From Elusimicrobiaceae bacterium (GTDB taxonomy: Bacteria > Elusimicrobiota > Elusimicrobia > Elusimicrobiales > Elusimicrobiaceae), in assembly GCA_017528825.1 (NCBI GenBank), contig JAFXOI010000001.1:62001-126000 (forward strand): a stretch of 64,000 nucleotides of DNA, read 5' to 3'. The notes below the pieces were generated by a model that had not been told where the DNA came from, did no database searches, and was given only the letters and a program-made list of their open reading frames with translations. Shown here in pieces: positions 31,091 to 63,959 of this stretch. The number at the start of each line of letters is the position of its first letter. Within the stretch, counting starts at the first letter, position 1. A program made the position numbers and the translations under genes.

Positions 31091-31097
31091 ATAAAAA

Positions 31098-31345
31098 GGA
31101 GTTATAGCAGTACCCCGGGCTGATCCCCCGGCACACAATTTAATCTGTTTTTGGAACCGTATGCAGAATACGGAGAGCTGCCAATCGGCGGCACTATTTC
31201 CCTCCAAAAATAGCCGATTGAGGCACAAAATAACGGACCTTCGAAACCCGTTGTTTTGTGCCGAATGTTTATCGTTTTTGACGGTAAACTACGGCTGTTT
31301 TGTTTTGGGTTAGGGAAATAGGCTCAAACATGACAGCCGTTTTTG
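31098..31345 (+). ncRNA. Structured RNA, copy A (unrecognised family)
   Basis: Helices, in order: P0 31115-31119/31127-31131; P1 31145-31155/31203-31213; inside P1, P2 31157-31161/31169-31173 and P3 31177-31182/31187-31192; P4 31222-31230/31254-31262; P5 31267-31274/31282-31289; P6 31291-31298/31333-31340, followed by five T. A pseudoknot pairs CTATTTCCCT (31194-31203) with AGGGAAATAG (31312-31321) in the P6 loop. An inner P6b (TTGGGT/GCTCAA) closes that loop. Every helix recurs with different bases in copies B and C. It ends 90 nt before a pseudopilin ATG. No ORF inside. Confidence 0.85.
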
Positions 31346-31380
31346 CATCTTATTTTCCAAAACAGGTAAAAGTGGAGGAG

Positions 31381-31405
31381 ATGCTGAGCAAAGACGACTC
31401 AGCAT
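31381..31405. repeat. Short palindrome (REP-like)
   Basis: ATGCTGAG (31381-31388) and CTCAGCAT (31398-31405) form a perfect 8-bp hairpin between RNA copy A and the pilin. The flanks (GGAG before, GACGACTT after) resemble dispersed REP-like hairpins seen in many bacteria. It is absent from copies B and C. Confidence 0.5.
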
Positions 31406-31434: not shown

Positions 31435-31974
31435 ATGAAAAATAAAAAACAAGGGTTTACCCTAATAGAATTATTGGTAGTGGTACTGATTATCGGTATT
31501 TTATCAGCCATTGCCTTACCGCAATATGAAAAAGCAGTCGAAAAATCTAAAATCATAAATATGCTTCCTTTATATAAAGCTGTTATTCAAGCTAATGAAA
31601 TGTATGATTTAGAACATGGGCAATCGTTAGCTCCCAATTTTGATGCTTTGGGCCATATTCTACCGGACGATTGGACTGGCACAGATACCAATATCGCTAC
31701 AAATGGCGAATGGCAATTATACTTTTCTTATGATAATAAACATGGTTGGCGCTATATTGAGCTAAGGCATTTAACAGGCAAGTATGCACAAAGTGGTTTT
31801 ATATGGTTAGTGCGAGATAGTGGGCAACAGCACGATAGATTTCCCGATAGATTACAAATTGTTTGTTTTGAAAAATCAGACATGACTACCGGTCAAGGCG
31901 GATTTTGTAAAAAGGTATTAGGTGGAAAATATATTGGAAGCAATGGAAGCTATCTTTATACTTTTCCCTATTAG
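31435..31974 (+). CDS. Type IV pilin-like (pseudopilin) protein
   Basis: 179 aa. Leader MKNKKQGFTLIELL (cleavage expected after Gly7) and helix up to IALPQYEKAVEKSK match the family. The head is aromatic-rich, with only two cysteines near the C-terminus (IVCFEKS, GGFCKK) and a GSNGSYLYTFPY end. The ribosome site is AAGGAGA. It follows structured RNA copy A and may be read through from its promoter. A bidirectional terminator follows. Confidence 0.9.
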   Translation: MKNKKQGFTLIELLVVVLIIGILSAIALPQYEKAVEKSKIINMLPLYKAVIQANEMYDLEHGQSLAPNFDALGHILPDDWTGTDTNIATNGEWQLYFSYDNKHGWRYIELRHLTGKYAQSGFIWLVRDSGQQHDRFPDRLQIVCFEKSDMTTGQGGFCKKVLGGKYIGSNGSYLYTFPY

Positions 31975-37590: not shown

Positions 37591-37855
37591 GTCGTATAGG
37601 AGCAAAAGTACCCGCGCACCAACGCGGTAAATTACAATTTCATCTGTTTTTGGAACCGTATGCAGAATACGGTGCGCTGTCGGAAATCTGACGGCACAGC
37701 TCACCTCCAAAGACAGTCGTTTTAGGCACAAGAAGAAAAGGGTCGCTCCTGATTTTTCTTGTGCCGAGTGTTTGCCGCACCTTTGGGTGCGGCAGACCAC
37801 GGCTGTTATGTGTTGGGTTAGGTGAGCTGGCTCAAGCATAACAGCCGTTTTTTTG
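37591..37855 (+). ncRNA. Structured RNA, copy B (unrecognised family)
   Basis: Same order of helices as copy A: P0 37612-37616/37623-37627; P1 37644-37654/37706-37716; P4 37725-37734/37756-37765; P5 37770-37781/37786-37797 (longer here); P6 ACGGCTGTTATG 37799-37810 with CATAACAGCCGT 37837-37848, then seven T. The pseudoknot is CAGCTCACCT (37697-37706) with AGGTGAGCTG (37820-37829), perfect and different in sequence from copy A. The final T run ends about 39 nt before the pseudopilin ATG. Confidence 0.87.
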
Positions 37856-37892: not shown

Positions 37893-38819
37893 ATGCAAAA
37901 AAACAGACATGCCTTCACACTAGTAGAACTATTAGTCGTCGTACTCATTATAGGAGTTTTATCAGCTATTGCTATCCCCATGTATCAAGGAGCTGTAGAT
38001 AAAAGCCATTGGAGCACTATGCTCCCCGGAGCTAAAGCGATAAAAGACGCCGAAGAAGCTATCAAAATGAGCAATGGAGCTTATACAGATAATATGGCTA
38101 ATTTAGATGTTACTATGAATAATGCAGATTTAACCTTTGCTTTAGTAACACCTAATAATACGGCCGACCCGAATGTAATCAGAGTGACGAATAGTAAGTT
38201 AGCCAATGTACGGTTAGCCAGTTATTTAGATGATAACCCGAAATTTGCCGGGCAGTTACATTGTGAAGCCAAGACGGGTGATGAGCGCGCGGAAAGACTG
38301 TGCGGAAAATTACTTATGGGGCAAGAACTAACCTCATCAGACGGCTATACGGGCTATCTACTAGACCAAGAAATCGACAAAGCCACGTGTGATCATGCTA
38401 GTCGCAGTTGGAGTACAAGCAAAACAAAATGTTATAAGACAACGGCAGATAGATGTGAAGCATTAGGTCTGGGTGTTGTAGCAGGAATGAATGAGCAATG
38501 CGGATATGTAGATGGAGCTGAGAAAACGATCGGATCCGAAGGAATTTGCATGGGCAGTAAAAATGCCGGCTGTCACAGATCAAAATTTGAAAATGGAGGT
38601 GCTTGTGTGTCTGACGTAAAGTGGGGGTGTCTAGGCAATAGTTATACAAACGGTTCTATTTGTTACGGCGATTGGAATGATTGTGGCACTACTCATCCAA
38701 ACTATATAAATTCCTATGATGAAACTTCTTGTTGTTGTGCAAAGAATGGCACCAGCGGTTGTGGATCCGCTCCGACATGTCAGTCGCGCGGCATCGCATG
38801 TGACCCGCAATATTTATAA
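37893..38819 (+). CDS. Pseudopilin with a cysteine-rich C-terminal extension
   Basis: 308 aa. Leader MQKNRHAFTLVELL: the residue before the helix is Ala, not Gly, which is less usual for prepilin peptidase. The helix (VVVLIIGVLSAIAIP) and a pilin head follow to about residue 130. The remaining about 180 residues hold most of the 18 cysteines in pairs such as GICMGSKNAGC, GACVSDVKWGC and a SCCC triplet, a pattern like repeated disulfide loops. AAGGAG ribosome site. Directly downstream of RNA copy B. Function unknown; extracellular disulfide-stabilised tip or adhesin is a guess. Confidence 0.85.
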   Translation: MQKNRHAFTLVELLVVVLIIGVLSAIAIPMYQGAVDKSHWSTMLPGAKAIKDAEEAIKMSNGAYTDNMANLDVTMNNADLTFALVTPNNTADPNVIRVTNSKLANVRLASYLDDNPKFAGQLHCEAKTGDERAERLCGKLLMGQELTSSDGYTGYLLDQEIDKATCDHASRSWSTSKTKCYKTTADRCEALGLGVVAGMNEQCGYVDGAEKTIGSEGICMGSKNAGCHRSKFENGGACVSDVKWGCLGNSYTNGSICYGDWNDCGTTHPNYINSYDETSCCCAKNGTSGCGSAPTCQSRGIACDPQYL

Positions 38820-60006: not shown

Positions 60007-61917
60007 TTATCTCATTCCGTATATCTGACGTAATTCGTCTCTCATTTCCTGTATTTTTTGTTTATAATATTTACGTTTTTTCCCCCACGATAAGTATCTC
60101 TTAATACAGTAACGTTTATATTTCCAATATAATTTCCGATAATTGCACAATTGCTTCAGTTTATAATCTAAGGTTTGATTATATAAACGTTGCAAGAGAA
60201 TCTCGTAATAAGGCGTTTTACGAGCATATTGCCACCAAATATGGGCATTAAAAGAAGTAGGGTCCTGCCAAGGTTTTATTCCGCCAGCGTAATGTAAGTA
60301 TCCCGCAGATTGCAAAGCATTTCTATACCGCAGACGTAGTCGGTAGGGCATTTCATTAGCCCAGTTTTTATGATAAATAGGAATTAGGTTTTCTACATTC
60401 CATTTATCTTCTAAAAACCTTATTTTCCCTTTACATACTACGTTTAAAACATCTTGGTCTAAATACCGGGGAGTCTTCAAGCGACGCAACGTGGACAAAC
60501 ATTTGGCAGTCATATCAAATTGTTTCATTTGTTCAATATTGCACACCAACAAGCCAGCTTGAAAATATTCAGAAGGATTGGTTAAGTGTAATACTTTTTC
60601 ATACGTTTGGTCGCCCGACAACCACTGACGTTCTGCCTCTATATCCCGGGCGGCTCCAAATAAAAAACCTTTCAAATCTGTATGAAAAACATCAGCCACA
60701 TCTTGTAAAAATATTGCATCACAATCACAATAAACTATTTTTTCAAAATGAGCAAAAATATGCGGGATGAAAAAACGCGCATAGGTCGCTTTTGAAAACC
60801 AACCATAGGTATAAAATAATTCTTGCGGATACTGCGCCAAATAGCGAGATATATCCATATAACGAAATTGAACATTGGAGGTCTGTATAGAATTTAAAAC
60901 CCGCTTGGTATCAGCCGTCAATCCATCGTCTAGTATATACGCCGTGTACGATAAAGAGGCAGAGGCATGGTCTATTAGAGATTGCAACGTAACAGCCAAA
61001 TACGGCGCAAAAGCTTCGCTACTAGACATGCAGACCGAAATCTCTCCTTTTACCCGCGGTTTGATATCCAAAATCAGACGCATATCCCCCACTAATGTTC
61101 TTTTTAATTCTCTAATTTTGGCTACTTTATGCTGGTATTGATATGTCAAATAAATTCCTTGCAATCTTTCGCCTAAATGTCCTAAGAGCCTTATTTGTTG
61201 CTCTGTTTGTGTAGTAGGATTAGGCAGACACTCTGCTTCTTTTAGAAGGGGAAATAACCATTCACAATAATCAAAAAACCATTTTTTACTAGCTACAAAA
61301 ATATTGGTAAAATATCCCTCCGCACCATGCAGATATTCTTGAGTAGCCCCTTTATATTCAGGTCTTTTTCGACATATGATACCCACCATATTATCCATAT
61401 CTTGAATATTTAAATCGGGACTAACAGTTTTATACTGTTGGTAAGGAGAACCAGGCCCTAATTTATGCATATCGAGTTTTTGGCCTACCAGCACATCATA
61501 TCCCTTTAAAGCATTTAGAATAGATTTTTCTTGTAATTGGTATTTTTGTATATAATTTGCATCCAATTGCGAACTATACAATAAGCCATATTTATCCGGT
61601 TCTTCCATATTATTCAGATCAAAACATAAATGCCTTCTGTAATGCATTAACCCAATATAATCCGGATTTCCTAATTTATCATAATTTTTCCACGCCCAAT
61701 ACATGACGCATAACTCATTGTAATACGAATTTTTGCTAGAAATATTATCTCCCGTGTTATCGCTGATGCAATTTTTGTGCAGCCACTCCTTGTCTTGGGC
61801 AGATAATGCTGTTTCATCTTCTATGGCACGGCCACTCTGGACCGGAACAAATATGTCACTTTTTAATAAAGTAGCCGGTTTATGGTAGGCAACTAATATT
61901 TTGATTTTTGGATTCAT
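60007..61917 (-). CDS. DUF4422-GT8 fusion glycosyltransferase
   Basis: 636 aa from the ATG at 61917 (GGGAGA upstream). The first about 300 residues are DUF4422 (ILVAYHKPATLL, PVQSGRAI, DNTGDNISSKNSYYNELCVMYWAWKN, HYRRHLCFD). The rest is GT8: VCMSSSEAFAPYLAVTLQSLIDH, YCDCDAIFLQD (DxD) and LHYAGGIKPWQD. Same fusion as the gene at 42713 but in a separate place, downstream of RNA copy C, and of normal base composition. Presumably adds two linked sugars to a surface glycan. Confidence 0.87.
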   Translation of the reverse strand: MNPKIKILVAYHKPATLLKSDIFVPVQSGRAIEDETALSAQDKEWLHKNCISDNTGDNISSKNSYYNELCVMYWAWKNYDKLGNPDYIGLMHYRRHLCFDLNNMEEPDKYGLLYSSQLDANYIQKYQLQEKSILNALKGYDVLVGQKLDMHKLGPGSPYQQYKTVSPDLNIQDMDNMVGIICRKRPEYKGATQEYLHGAEGYFTNIFVASKKWFFDYCEWLFPLLKEAECLPNPTTQTEQQIRLLGHLGERLQGIYLTYQYQHKVAKIRELKRTLVGDMRLILDIKPRVKGEISVCMSSSEAFAPYLAVTLQSLIDHASASLSYTAYILDDGLTADTKRVLNSIQTSNVQFRYMDISRYLAQYPQELFYTYGWFSKATYARFFIPHIFAHFEKIVYCDCDAIFLQDVADVFHTDLKGFLFGAARDIEAERQWLSGDQTYEKVLHLTNPSEYFQAGLLVCNIEQMKQFDMTAKCLSTLRRLKTPRYLDQDVLNVVCKGKIRFLEDKWNVENLIPIYHKNWANEMPYRLRLRYRNALQSAGYLHYAGGIKPWQDPTSFNAHIWWQYARKTPYYEILLQRLYNQTLDYKLKQLCNYRKLYWKYKRYCIKRYLSWGKKRKYYKQKIQEMRDELRQIYGMR

Positions 61918-61967
61918 ATAAATCTCCCAATCTACGATTTCGGAATCCACAAACAAACAATCTAGCC

Positions 61968-62205
61968 AACAAAAACGGCTGTTTGCCTAGAGACCATTCA
62001 CGCCCTCTAAAACAAACAGCCGTGGTTTGCCGTCACGATTGACGGCAAACACTCGGCACCACACTTCCAAGGGATCAGCTCGGACGTGTAGTGCCTAAAA
62101 CGACTGTTTTTGGTGTGAATGGGCTGCCTTTCGACAGCGCCCCCTACGGGATTCCAAAAACAGATAAATTTAAGTAAGCCGGATTAGGGCTTTGTTAACT
62201 CTTTT
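61968..62205 (-). ncRNA. Structured RNA, copy C (unrecognised family)
   Basis: Minus strand, plus-strand positions given. P0 62188-62192/62176-62180; P1 62163-62153/62113-62104; P4 62095-62086/62064-62055; P5 62050-62041/62034-62025; P6 62023-62013/61985-61975, then five T. The pseudoknot is CCATTCAC (62122-62115) with GTGAATGG (62001-61994), again different from A and B. P3 has a GAAA loop. P6b is TAGAG/CTCTA. The end lies about 50 nt before the DUF4422-GT8 ATG. The hpf gene is divergent. Confidence 0.85.
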
Positions 62206-62366
62206 CTCCTGTTACTACCCCACTATATTACCAAATTTTATGCATCCTTGTTTTTTACGGATTTTTTCCTATACTACTTAATAGGTTCTACTTACCCCGC
62301 GGCAAGGAGGCTTATCAAATTTATCTAATTCTGCTTTTATAACTATTCTTTTCCGTCAATTACGCG

Positions 62367-62416: not shown

Positions 62417-62437
62417 TGAAATTATGTGGAGGAAGTT

Positions 62438-62989
62438 ATGGAAATTAAAATCACCGCGAAAAACATTAAATTAACGCCTGCTATCAAACAATTCGTACAA
62501 GCTCGCGTCAACAAAATTGAAAATTATTTTGACAATGTGGTATGGGCACAAGTTTTGTTGTCCGTAGAGAAAAAAATCAACCAACGAGCCGAAATCATTA
62601 TTCACACCGGTGGGAAAGGCACCGTATCTGCTTCTGCCGTGGAAGGAGATTTGTATAAAGCCATTGATTCAGCCGTTACCAAAGCCGAAGCCCAGATGAA
62701 GAAAGCCAAAGGCAAATCCAAAGCAAAACGTGCGGCTAAAAGAGCTCCTGTTGTGGAAGAAATGGCCACCTTCAATGACCATATTTTGTTGCCGGCCAAC
62801 GATGTGAAGTTTTCCGTCATTAAACAAGTAGAAGTAACCCCGATGAACCCGGAAGATGCCGCCTACGAAATGGAACGTTTAGGATATTCTTTCTGGATGT
62901 TCTTAGACGAAGATTCCAAACAAATCAACTTGATTTTCAAACGCTTGGACGGCACTTACGGTTTAATTAAACCTATTAAAAAGAAATAA
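62438..62989 (+). CDS. hpf: Ribosome hibernation promoting factor, long form
   Basis: 183 aa. The N-terminal HPF/RaiA domain (MEIKITAKNIKLTPAIKQFV) is joined by a basic linker to the C-terminal dimerisation domain (SVIKQVEVTPMNPEDAAYEM, then FWMFLDEDSKQINLIFKRLDG), which makes 100S ribosome dimers. GGAGG precedes the ATG at 62438; a GTG 12 nt earlier is in frame but lies within the ribosome site. Starts the hpf-hprK-rapZ unit. Confidence 0.95.
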   Translation: MEIKITAKNIKLTPAIKQFVQARVNKIENYFDNVVWAQVLLSVEKKINQRAEIIIHTGGKGTVSASAVEGDLYKAIDSAVTKAEAQMKKAKGKSKAKRAAKRAPVVEEMATFNDHILLPANDVKFSVIKQVEVTPMNPEDAAYEMERLGYSFWMFLDEDSKQINLIFKRLDGTYGLIKPIKKK

Positions 62990-62999
62990 GAAGGAAGCG

Positions 63000-63959
63000 G
63001 TGCAAAAATTCACAAAATCCATAACCGTTAAAGACTTGCTCCAGATGAAACGCCTTCGTCTGGAGCTGGTCTGTGGTAGACGCTATATTCACCGCAACAT
63101 TTCCACGCCCAACATCAACCGGCCGGGGCTGGCTTTGTGCGGACATATGGATCATTTTTTGCCCAACGCAATTCAGTTATTCGGACCGGAAGAGTACGGC
63201 TTCTGCCGTAAAACGAAACCTAAAATTTTGCAAACCAGCATCGCCCATATGTTGGAAAAAGGGAAAGTGCCTTGCATTATTATGGTGGAAAATCTAAAAA
63301 CAGCTCCCGCCTTGCGCAAGGCCTGTTTGGAAGCGGAAGTCCCCGTATTGAAAACCTCGTTGGATTTGGCTGATTTCGCGGCTGAGATTCGTCGTTTTCT
63401 AGATGAAGAATTAGCGCCTGTTACCCATGTGCACGGTGTACTATTAAATGTAAGCGGAAGCGGTATTTTACTGCGCGGGGAAGCCGGTATCGGCAAAAGC
63501 GAATGTGCCTTGGAACTAATTAAGCGCGGACATATTTTGATTGCAGATGACGTAGTAGAAGTGCAGAAAAGATGGGGACGGTTTTTAATCGGTTCCTGTC
63601 CTGAAATGCTCAAGCACTACATGGAAGTGCGGGGCTTGGGGATTTTAGATATAGATTTACTGTTCGGTATCGGTGCCACCAAAGACGAGGGCGCCATCGA
63701 TATGGAAATTGAACTGGTCCCCCCCACCGAAACAATTGACCGTTTGGGGGTTGAACAGCGCACCACCGAGCTGTTGGGAGTGGAAATTCCCTCGCTGGCC
63801 TTGCCGGTTACTCCGGGGCGCAACTTAGCCGTTTTAATCGAAGTGGCCGCATTAAATCAGCAACTTAAATCCCAAGGCATTTTATCAGCCAAACAGTTTA
63901 GCCAAAAAATGCTAAACCGTATGAAAAAGAAAACGAGGACTCATGCACCAGAAGCGTAA
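63000..63959 (+). CDS. hprK: HPr kinase/phosphorylase
   Basis: 319 aa with a GTG start after AAGGAAG. The kinase domain has Walker A GEAGIGKS at 160-167, ILIADDVVEVQKR and the MEVRGLGILDIDLLFG capping motif. Phosphorylates HPr on Ser, typical of catabolite control in Firmicutes and of PtsN-like regulation in diderms. It overlaps rapZ by 17 nt. Confidence 0.94.
   Translation: MQKFTKSITVKDLLQMKRLRLELVCGRRYIHRNISTPNINRPGLALCGHMDHFLPNAIQLFGPEEYGFCRKTKPKILQTSIAHMLEKGKVPCIIMVENLKTAPALRKACLEAEVPVLKTSLDLADFAAEIRRFLDEELAPVTHVHGVLLNVSGSGILLRGEAGIGKSECALELIKRGHILIADDVVEVQKRWGRFLIGSCPEMLKHYMEVRGLGILDIDLLFGIGATKDEGAIDMEIELVPPTETIDRLGVEQRTTELLGVEIPSLALPVTPGRNLAVLIEVAALNQQLKSQGILSAKQFSQKMLNRMKKKTRTHAPEA

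Follow-up and report, generated by a model that had tools for sequence, protein, structure and literature searches.

A widespread structured leader RNA with two mutually exclusive folds upstream of prepilin and surface genes in Elusimicrobiota, most likely a transcription attenuator

The window, a stretch of 64,000 nucleotides from an Elusimicrobiaceae genome, holds three copies (A, B and C) of a structured RNA, all of them recovered, with position and strand, when the earlier claim of a repeated element was checked against the sequence (Table 1). From 5' to 3' the RNA consists of a short leader, strand X (CUGUUUUUGG), P2, P3, a variable 10-mer, strand Y (CCAAAAACAG), a linker beginning UCG, P4, a GARU linker, P5, strand Z (ACGGCUGUU), a terminator apex that contains the complement of the variable 10-mer, strand W (AACAGCCGU) and a U-tract. 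Divergent from copy C, positions 62426-63959 (+) carry a ribosome hibernation factor (S30AE) gene with HPr kinase directly after it. A short palindromic repeat (ATGCTGAG...CTCAGCAT, 31381-31405) separates leader A from its gene, and the pilin ORFs behind several copies (L010, L013, L021 and L033) have 20-60 extra in-frame residues before the prepilin motif, e.g. SFCSASQPLNKDEALNKDAFRATR, which apparently derive from the repeat. AGGAG Shine-Dalgarno-like sites are present at 31097-31101 (+), 37598-37602 (+) and 62206-62210 (-). Among copies with a distant promoter such a site often lies near the presumed RNA 5' end, mostly with no start codon after it, and is possibly a ribosome-binding mRNA stabiliser.

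Table 1. Positions of the leader segments and downstream genes in the window (P1 = X:Y, terminator = Z:W; CM, covariance model)
Feature	Position	Strand	Basis or remark
Copy A, conserved core	31135-31344	+	CM match, 195.7 bits; upstream of prepilin ORF 31435-31974
Copy A, strand X (CTGTTTTTGG), P1 5' strand	31145-31154	+	CM alignment segmentation
Copy A, CTATTTCCCT, 'pseudoknot' 5' strand = outer antiterminator helix	31194-31203	+	Sequence, strand pairing, covariation
Copy A, strand Y (CCAAAAATAG), P1 3' strand	31204-31213	+	Alternative: 3' part of Y and next CCG pair with Z
Copy A, P4 hairpin	31222-31262	+	Apical-loop palindrome TTCGAA at 31240-31245
Copy A, P5 hairpin	31267-31289	+	CM alignment, covariation
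Copy A, strand Z (ACGGCTGTT), terminator 5' strand	31291-31299	+	Alternative partner is Y
Copy A, AGGGAAATAG, outer antiterminator helix 3' strand	31312-31321	+	Sits in terminator apical part
Copy A, strand W (CATGACAGCCGT) and U-tract, intrinsic terminator 3' half	31329-31344	+	Sequence, terminator analysis, covariation
Prepilin-like gene behind copy A	31435-31974	+	PF07963 N_methyl
Copy B, core	37634-37852	+	CM match
Copy B, X	37644-37653	+	CM alignment
Copy B, outer antiterminator helix	37697-37706 with 37820-37829	+	CM alignment
Copy B, Y	37707-37716	+	CM alignment
Copy B, P4	37725-37765	+	Loop GTCGCTC, one of the non-palindromic exceptions
Copy B, P5; Z; W	37770-37797; 37799-37807; 37837-37848	+	CM alignment
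Prepilin-like gene behind copy B	37893-38819	+	PF07963
Copy C, core	61971-62173	-	CM match
Copy C, X; Y	62163-62154; 62113-62104	-	
Copy C, outer antiterminator helix	62122-62115 with 62001-61994	-	
Copy C, P4	62095-62055	-	Loop CTGATCC
Copy C, Z; W; U-tract	62023-62015; 61983-61975; to 61971	-	
Two-domain glycosyltransferase gene behind copy C	60007-61956	-	Fusion of PF14393 DUF4422 and PF01501 Glyco_transf_8

The helices that the sequence-only reading had quoted, such as CTATTTCCCT/AGGGAAATAG in copy A and CAGCTCACCT/AGGTGAGCTG in copy B, are correct and far beyond chance, and its proposal of a selected structured RNA was borne out by strong covariation: with more homologues aligned, the counts again favour a selected RNA, and P1, P2, P4, P5 and the terminator covary as well as the variable helix described below. 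The P0 hairpin that it had listed as a shared helix lies outside the conserved core, varies, and is absent where the promoter is closer. It had also recognised no known family; in agreement with this, cmscan of the window against Rfam at gathering thresholds gave no match to the RNA, the matches within the window being three tRNAs only, and six copies compared with Rfam in the permissive E-value mode gave sub-threshold matches only, none near the gathering score. Among the papers searched, none dealt with the RNA family or with similar riboswitches in Elusimicrobiota. The RNA family is real, selected and absent from Rfam.

The family had been thought to comprise three copies, which is the content of the window only. 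Using copy A as a blastn query we obtained 40 matches in the same 1.53-Mb genome, and a covariance model built from 41 copies of that genome gave 57 matches there and another 57 in a sister-genus genome; some of the matches in each count are weak, partial or on the opposite strand. In the window's genome, one shared partial copy forms the end of contigs C15 and C16 (bases 1-139), and since the assembly breaks at the element the copy number is inexact. At least one model match is found in 63 of 199 Elusimicrobiota genomes, spanning two families of the phylum, with P4 missing and P1, P5 and the terminator kept in the most distant positives (L079, L089 and L097). Most of the named records with a match belong to Elusimicrobiaceae/Elusimicrobium or to metagenome-assembled genomes of Elusimicrobiota, with rumen and gut as frequent sources, and a few are titled merely 'uncultured bacterium'. 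A phage origin was dropped, as the six exact-pattern matches in viral contigs were unaccompanied by a model match there; likewise, the pattern matches outside the phylum (Gammaproteobacteria, Lachnospiraceae and other named records) had no model match.

So many matches in one small genome, together with a copy number that varies widely among relatives, would suit a dispersed repetitive or mobile element (REP- or MITE-like) whose copies had landed between genes. However, we regard this explanation as very improbable: the copies share a single orientation, with a promoter-like site on one side and a gene start on the other; their helices are compensated pair by pair at sequence identities of about 70-78% and recur in two families of the phylum; and in the window's genome nearly all copies precede one gene type. 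There, an ORF with a type III prepilin motif follows at short distance behind 38 of the 41 full copies examined (L033 by Pfam), the three exceptions being a lipoprotein-like ORF, a HAD hydrolase and the DUF4422 and GT8 glycosyltransferase of copy C. The same genome has 112 prepilin-motif (TIGR02532) matches in its 1.53 Mb, far above most of the phylum outside its own family, and about 38 of them carry the leader. Over all homologues, the downstream sequence was long enough to judge in 258 copies, and a conservative pattern places about 144 of these before prepilin-like ORFs. For 40 proteins encoded behind copies without that pattern, Pfam identified GT2, GT8, GT9, polysaccharide pyruvyl transferase, LicD and a CapD-like enzyme, an HsdR N-terminus, EcoRI-type and type III methylases, PLD/helicase restriction proteins and GmrSD, as well as sulfatase-fold and MptE-like proteins, outer-membrane barrels, SNase and TPR proteins; lipoprotein genes also stand behind copies in other genomes. 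In most copies the gene start is close behind the leader.

An extended -10 motif is found upstream of 160 of 257 copies, as against 37 control windows. At the other end, the terminator hairpin has a mean energy of -23.7 kcal/mol (253 copies) and is followed within 8 nt by at least five T in 247 of 253 copies. The 3' end of the leader is an intrinsic terminator, located between promoter and coding sequence. Several further elements were considered along the leader. A leader-peptide attenuator was rejected, as just 19 of 257 leaders have a Shine-Dalgarno site arranged with a start codon, and a CCAA:TTGG pairing in the antiterminator was dropped because TTGGG pairs mainly with the terminator 3' arm. 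In many copies of the window's genome TTTTCCAAAACAG, which is complementary to X, lies 3' of the U-tract (e.g. 31353-31365) and precedes the ribosome-binding site; as a conserved partner of X it was set aside, being barely above shuffles in that genome. Other copies have, 3' of the U-tract, a strand complementary to the terminator 3' arm, with a helix of at least 8 in 24% as compared to 6% of shuffles.

The sequence-only reading had described a pseudoknotted RNA with at least eight helices in the same order. The helices themselves hold, while the single compatible fold is not borne out as drawn, since it merges two that are mutually exclusive. In one, which we call fold T, P1 (X:Y) and the terminator (Z:W) are formed; in the other, fold R, a 10-bp variable helix and the Y:Z pairing enclose P4 and P5. 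The 5' strand of the 'pseudoknot' abuts Y, the P1 3' strand, and the 'pseudoknot' helix nests with the pairing of Y to the terminator 5' strand Z; the two together are best read as an antiterminator, of which the former pseudoknot is the outer helix. This outer helix shows both-sided changes at all 10 pairs (41 copies, one genome), and the structure that holds it has a covariation score of 0.573, compared to 0.211 for shuffles (0 of 500) and at most 0.144 when slid. Its strands comprise 223 distinct 10-mers among 261 homologues, in which own strands pair over a mean of 10.1 bp and swapped strands over 5.2 bp. The Y:Z pairing is present in 99% of cells (41 copies, one genome). Within the window's genome it shows one-sided exchanges only, mostly G-U/G-C, and its stronger support is one compensatory position in the wider set, several cases of which are paralogues of one genome: where Z has A instead of G, Y has T in 10 of 10 well-aligned cases. 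In three of these ten W has C or G and does not pair, and X frequently retains its G, the expected mark of a Y:Z pairing that is independent of P1 and the terminator. Both folds are backed by covariation and are mutually exclusive.

One could instead keep a compact pseudoknotted RNA in which P1, the terminator and the pseudoknot coexist and it is this one fold that functions, given that the pseudoknot 3' strand lies in the apical part of the terminator and covaries with the strand preceding the P1 3' strand. We consider this unlikely. In 223 of 253 copies the terminator stem and the pseudoknot 3' strand overlap, which keeps the two from being complete at the same time. The pseudoknot helix also nests with Y:Z, a pairing incompatible with P1 as well as with the terminator. 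A true pseudoknot, at least a partial one, may nevertheless exist in the terminated state, because our folding predictions were made with ViennaRNA, which is unable to score pseudoknots.

The order of the two folds along the transcript was followed with minimum-energy folds of growing transcripts from 253 homologues, which are equilibrium predictions. When the transcript ends after Y, P1 is predicted in 92% of them; when it ends after the antiterminator 3' strand, the outer helix is predicted in 98% and Y:Z in 92%; and when it extends to the U-tract, P1 is predicted in 84% and the terminator in 92%. Swapping the apical segment between copies lowers Y:Z at the middle point to 64% and restores P1 in 32%. 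About 40 of the 253 copies do not favour P1 and the terminator in the full-length prediction. Computation establishes the family, its place before genes, its terminator, the two alternative folds and their order along the transcript.

The RNA is probably a 5' leader that acts in cis and regulates the gene behind it through transcription attenuation. While RNA polymerase advances, X would first pair with Y to form P1. Once Z and the strand behind it emerge, Y would switch to Z and the adjoining 10-bp helix would close, giving the antiterminator around P4 and P5; with the emergence of W, Z would switch to W and P1 re-form, and the intrinsic terminator would halt transcription, usually 30-90 nt before the start codon. 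Which step wins would decide whether the gene gets read. We infer that cells use this switch and that its outcome is biased by a factor or by the transcription rate. The terminator and the leader position, the link to prepilin and surface genes, the copy number and the self-complementary P4 loop described below were all outside the sequence-only reading. Altogether, this is a new and widespread family, and transcription attenuation is its most likely mode of action.

A metabolite or second-messenger riboswitch is one way in which the switch could be set, with P1-P2-P3 as the aptamer and a ligand that locks P1 and thereby frees Z for the terminator. The layout is that of many terminating riboswitches, the copies are many and form a single regulon rich in surface genes, and three GGDEF proteins are encoded in the window's genome; c-di-GMP would be the obvious ligand candidate because c-di-GMP riboswitches control pili in other bacteria. 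Yet no Rfam riboswitch family matched in either the gathering or the E-value mode, conservation is concentrated in X, Y, Z and W, the strands that switch, the sequences and loops of P2 and P3 vary from family to family, and an invariant unpaired core was not seen, which makes a ligand-binding leader of this kind rather doubtful. The conserved unpaired stretches observed are short linkers (GARU and YCGNUUU). The leaders yielded neither a leader peptide nor a known aptamer, a conserved unpaired core and a partner protein were likewise not found, and a specialised NusG paralogue was rejected as partner, the genome having only one NusG-domain protein. The attenuator could be set by a riboswitch whose pocket is small or spread out, by an RNA-binding protein, by the transcription rate, or by pairing between leaders.

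The last of these is raised by the apical loop of P4, which is self-complementary in most copies while its sequence changes. Its palindromes include TAATTA, TTATAA, GATC, AGCT, TCATGA, TTCGAA, TTGCAA, GGCC, GTAC, TCTAGA, CTCGAG, CTATAG and CACGTG, nine copies have a GACG tetraloop, and the commonest loop, AC-UAAUUA-C, holds a 6-nt palindrome within 9 nt. Among 58 distinct P4 loops, 84% contain a palindrome of at least 4 nt, compared to 38% under a shuffled null, and 53% one of at least 6 nt, compared to 6% (maximum of 500 shuffles, 16%); for distinct loops of 6-11 nt the values rise to 93% and 67%. The corresponding figures are 35% and 0% for P5 loops, and 16% and 0% for P2-P3 loops. A complement of the P4 loop was sought within the same leader and in the 80 nt downstream; none was found, and there was no excess over swapped copies. 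An anticodon-like loop, with an invariant U before variable bases, was dropped once the palindromes had been seen, and no clear link emerged between loop class and gene type.

Self-complementarity that is kept without sequence conservation points to pairing between two like RNAs. It suggests that the P4 loop is a contact between two leader RNAs, a kissing dimer, which might also act on the switch, and hints that leader RNAs with a self-pairing loop, as in most copies, act in pairs. A further proposal, which we advance only tentatively, is that homotypic or class-restricted heterotypic P4 kissing dimers bias the attenuator, such that terminated leaders or neighbouring nascent transcripts switch genes with the same loop. 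If so, P4 dimers would constitute an RNA-only network over dozens of contingency-type surface and defence genes.

The transcription attenuator is a known kind of regulator; what is unusual here is the copy number, the target set and the self-complementary loop. Like other transcription attenuators and terminating riboswitches, the leader lies 5' of a gene, carries an intrinsic terminator before it, and has a mutually exclusive antiterminator that shares a strand with an upstream helix. Unlike them, it has no leader peptide, known aptamer or protein-binding site, its antiterminator encloses two hairpins, and up to 57 model matches occur in a small genome. GEMM c-di-GMP riboswitch arrays also have many copies per genome that act on surface genes (pilin, adhesin), a likeness that does not extend to Rfam membership or architecture, the leader having no Rfam match and being built differently.

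That evolution has kept only the self-complementarity of the loop speaks for RNA-RNA pairing of like transcripts, something that is, to our knowledge, rarely seen in bacterial mRNA leaders. The HIV-1 DIS is a palindromic kissing-loop dimer, and GACG is a self-complementary loop of Moloney murine leukaemia virus (PMC7357161). The DIS has a six-nucleotide palindrome in its apical loop, as does the commonest P4 loop, and the viral GACG has its counterpart in the GACG tetraloops of the leaders; in contrast to the viral elements, these are bacterial mRNA leaders with many palindromes within one genome, and their dimers are predicted from sequence. GOLLD, ROOL and OLE are bacterial structured RNAs that form homo-oligomers (PMC12286853). 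Those RNAs are described as large and ornate; the leader has no match in Rfam.

Other bacteria phase-vary pilins, glycan transferases, LicD, outer-membrane proteins, type III modification methylases and other restriction-modification genes, and the same kinds of gene stand behind the leaders. Such phase-variable contingency genes are the subject of a review (PMC11868660). In contrast to those genes, no feature of DNA rearrangement or repeat slippage was seen in the leader, and the candidate switch lies in the RNA. In small gut and rumen genomes, tens of surface, glycan and DNA-modification genes seem to be under the control of one undescribed RNA design. As other bacteria phase-vary these kinds of gene through changes in DNA, an RNA switch in that place would solve the same problem in another way.
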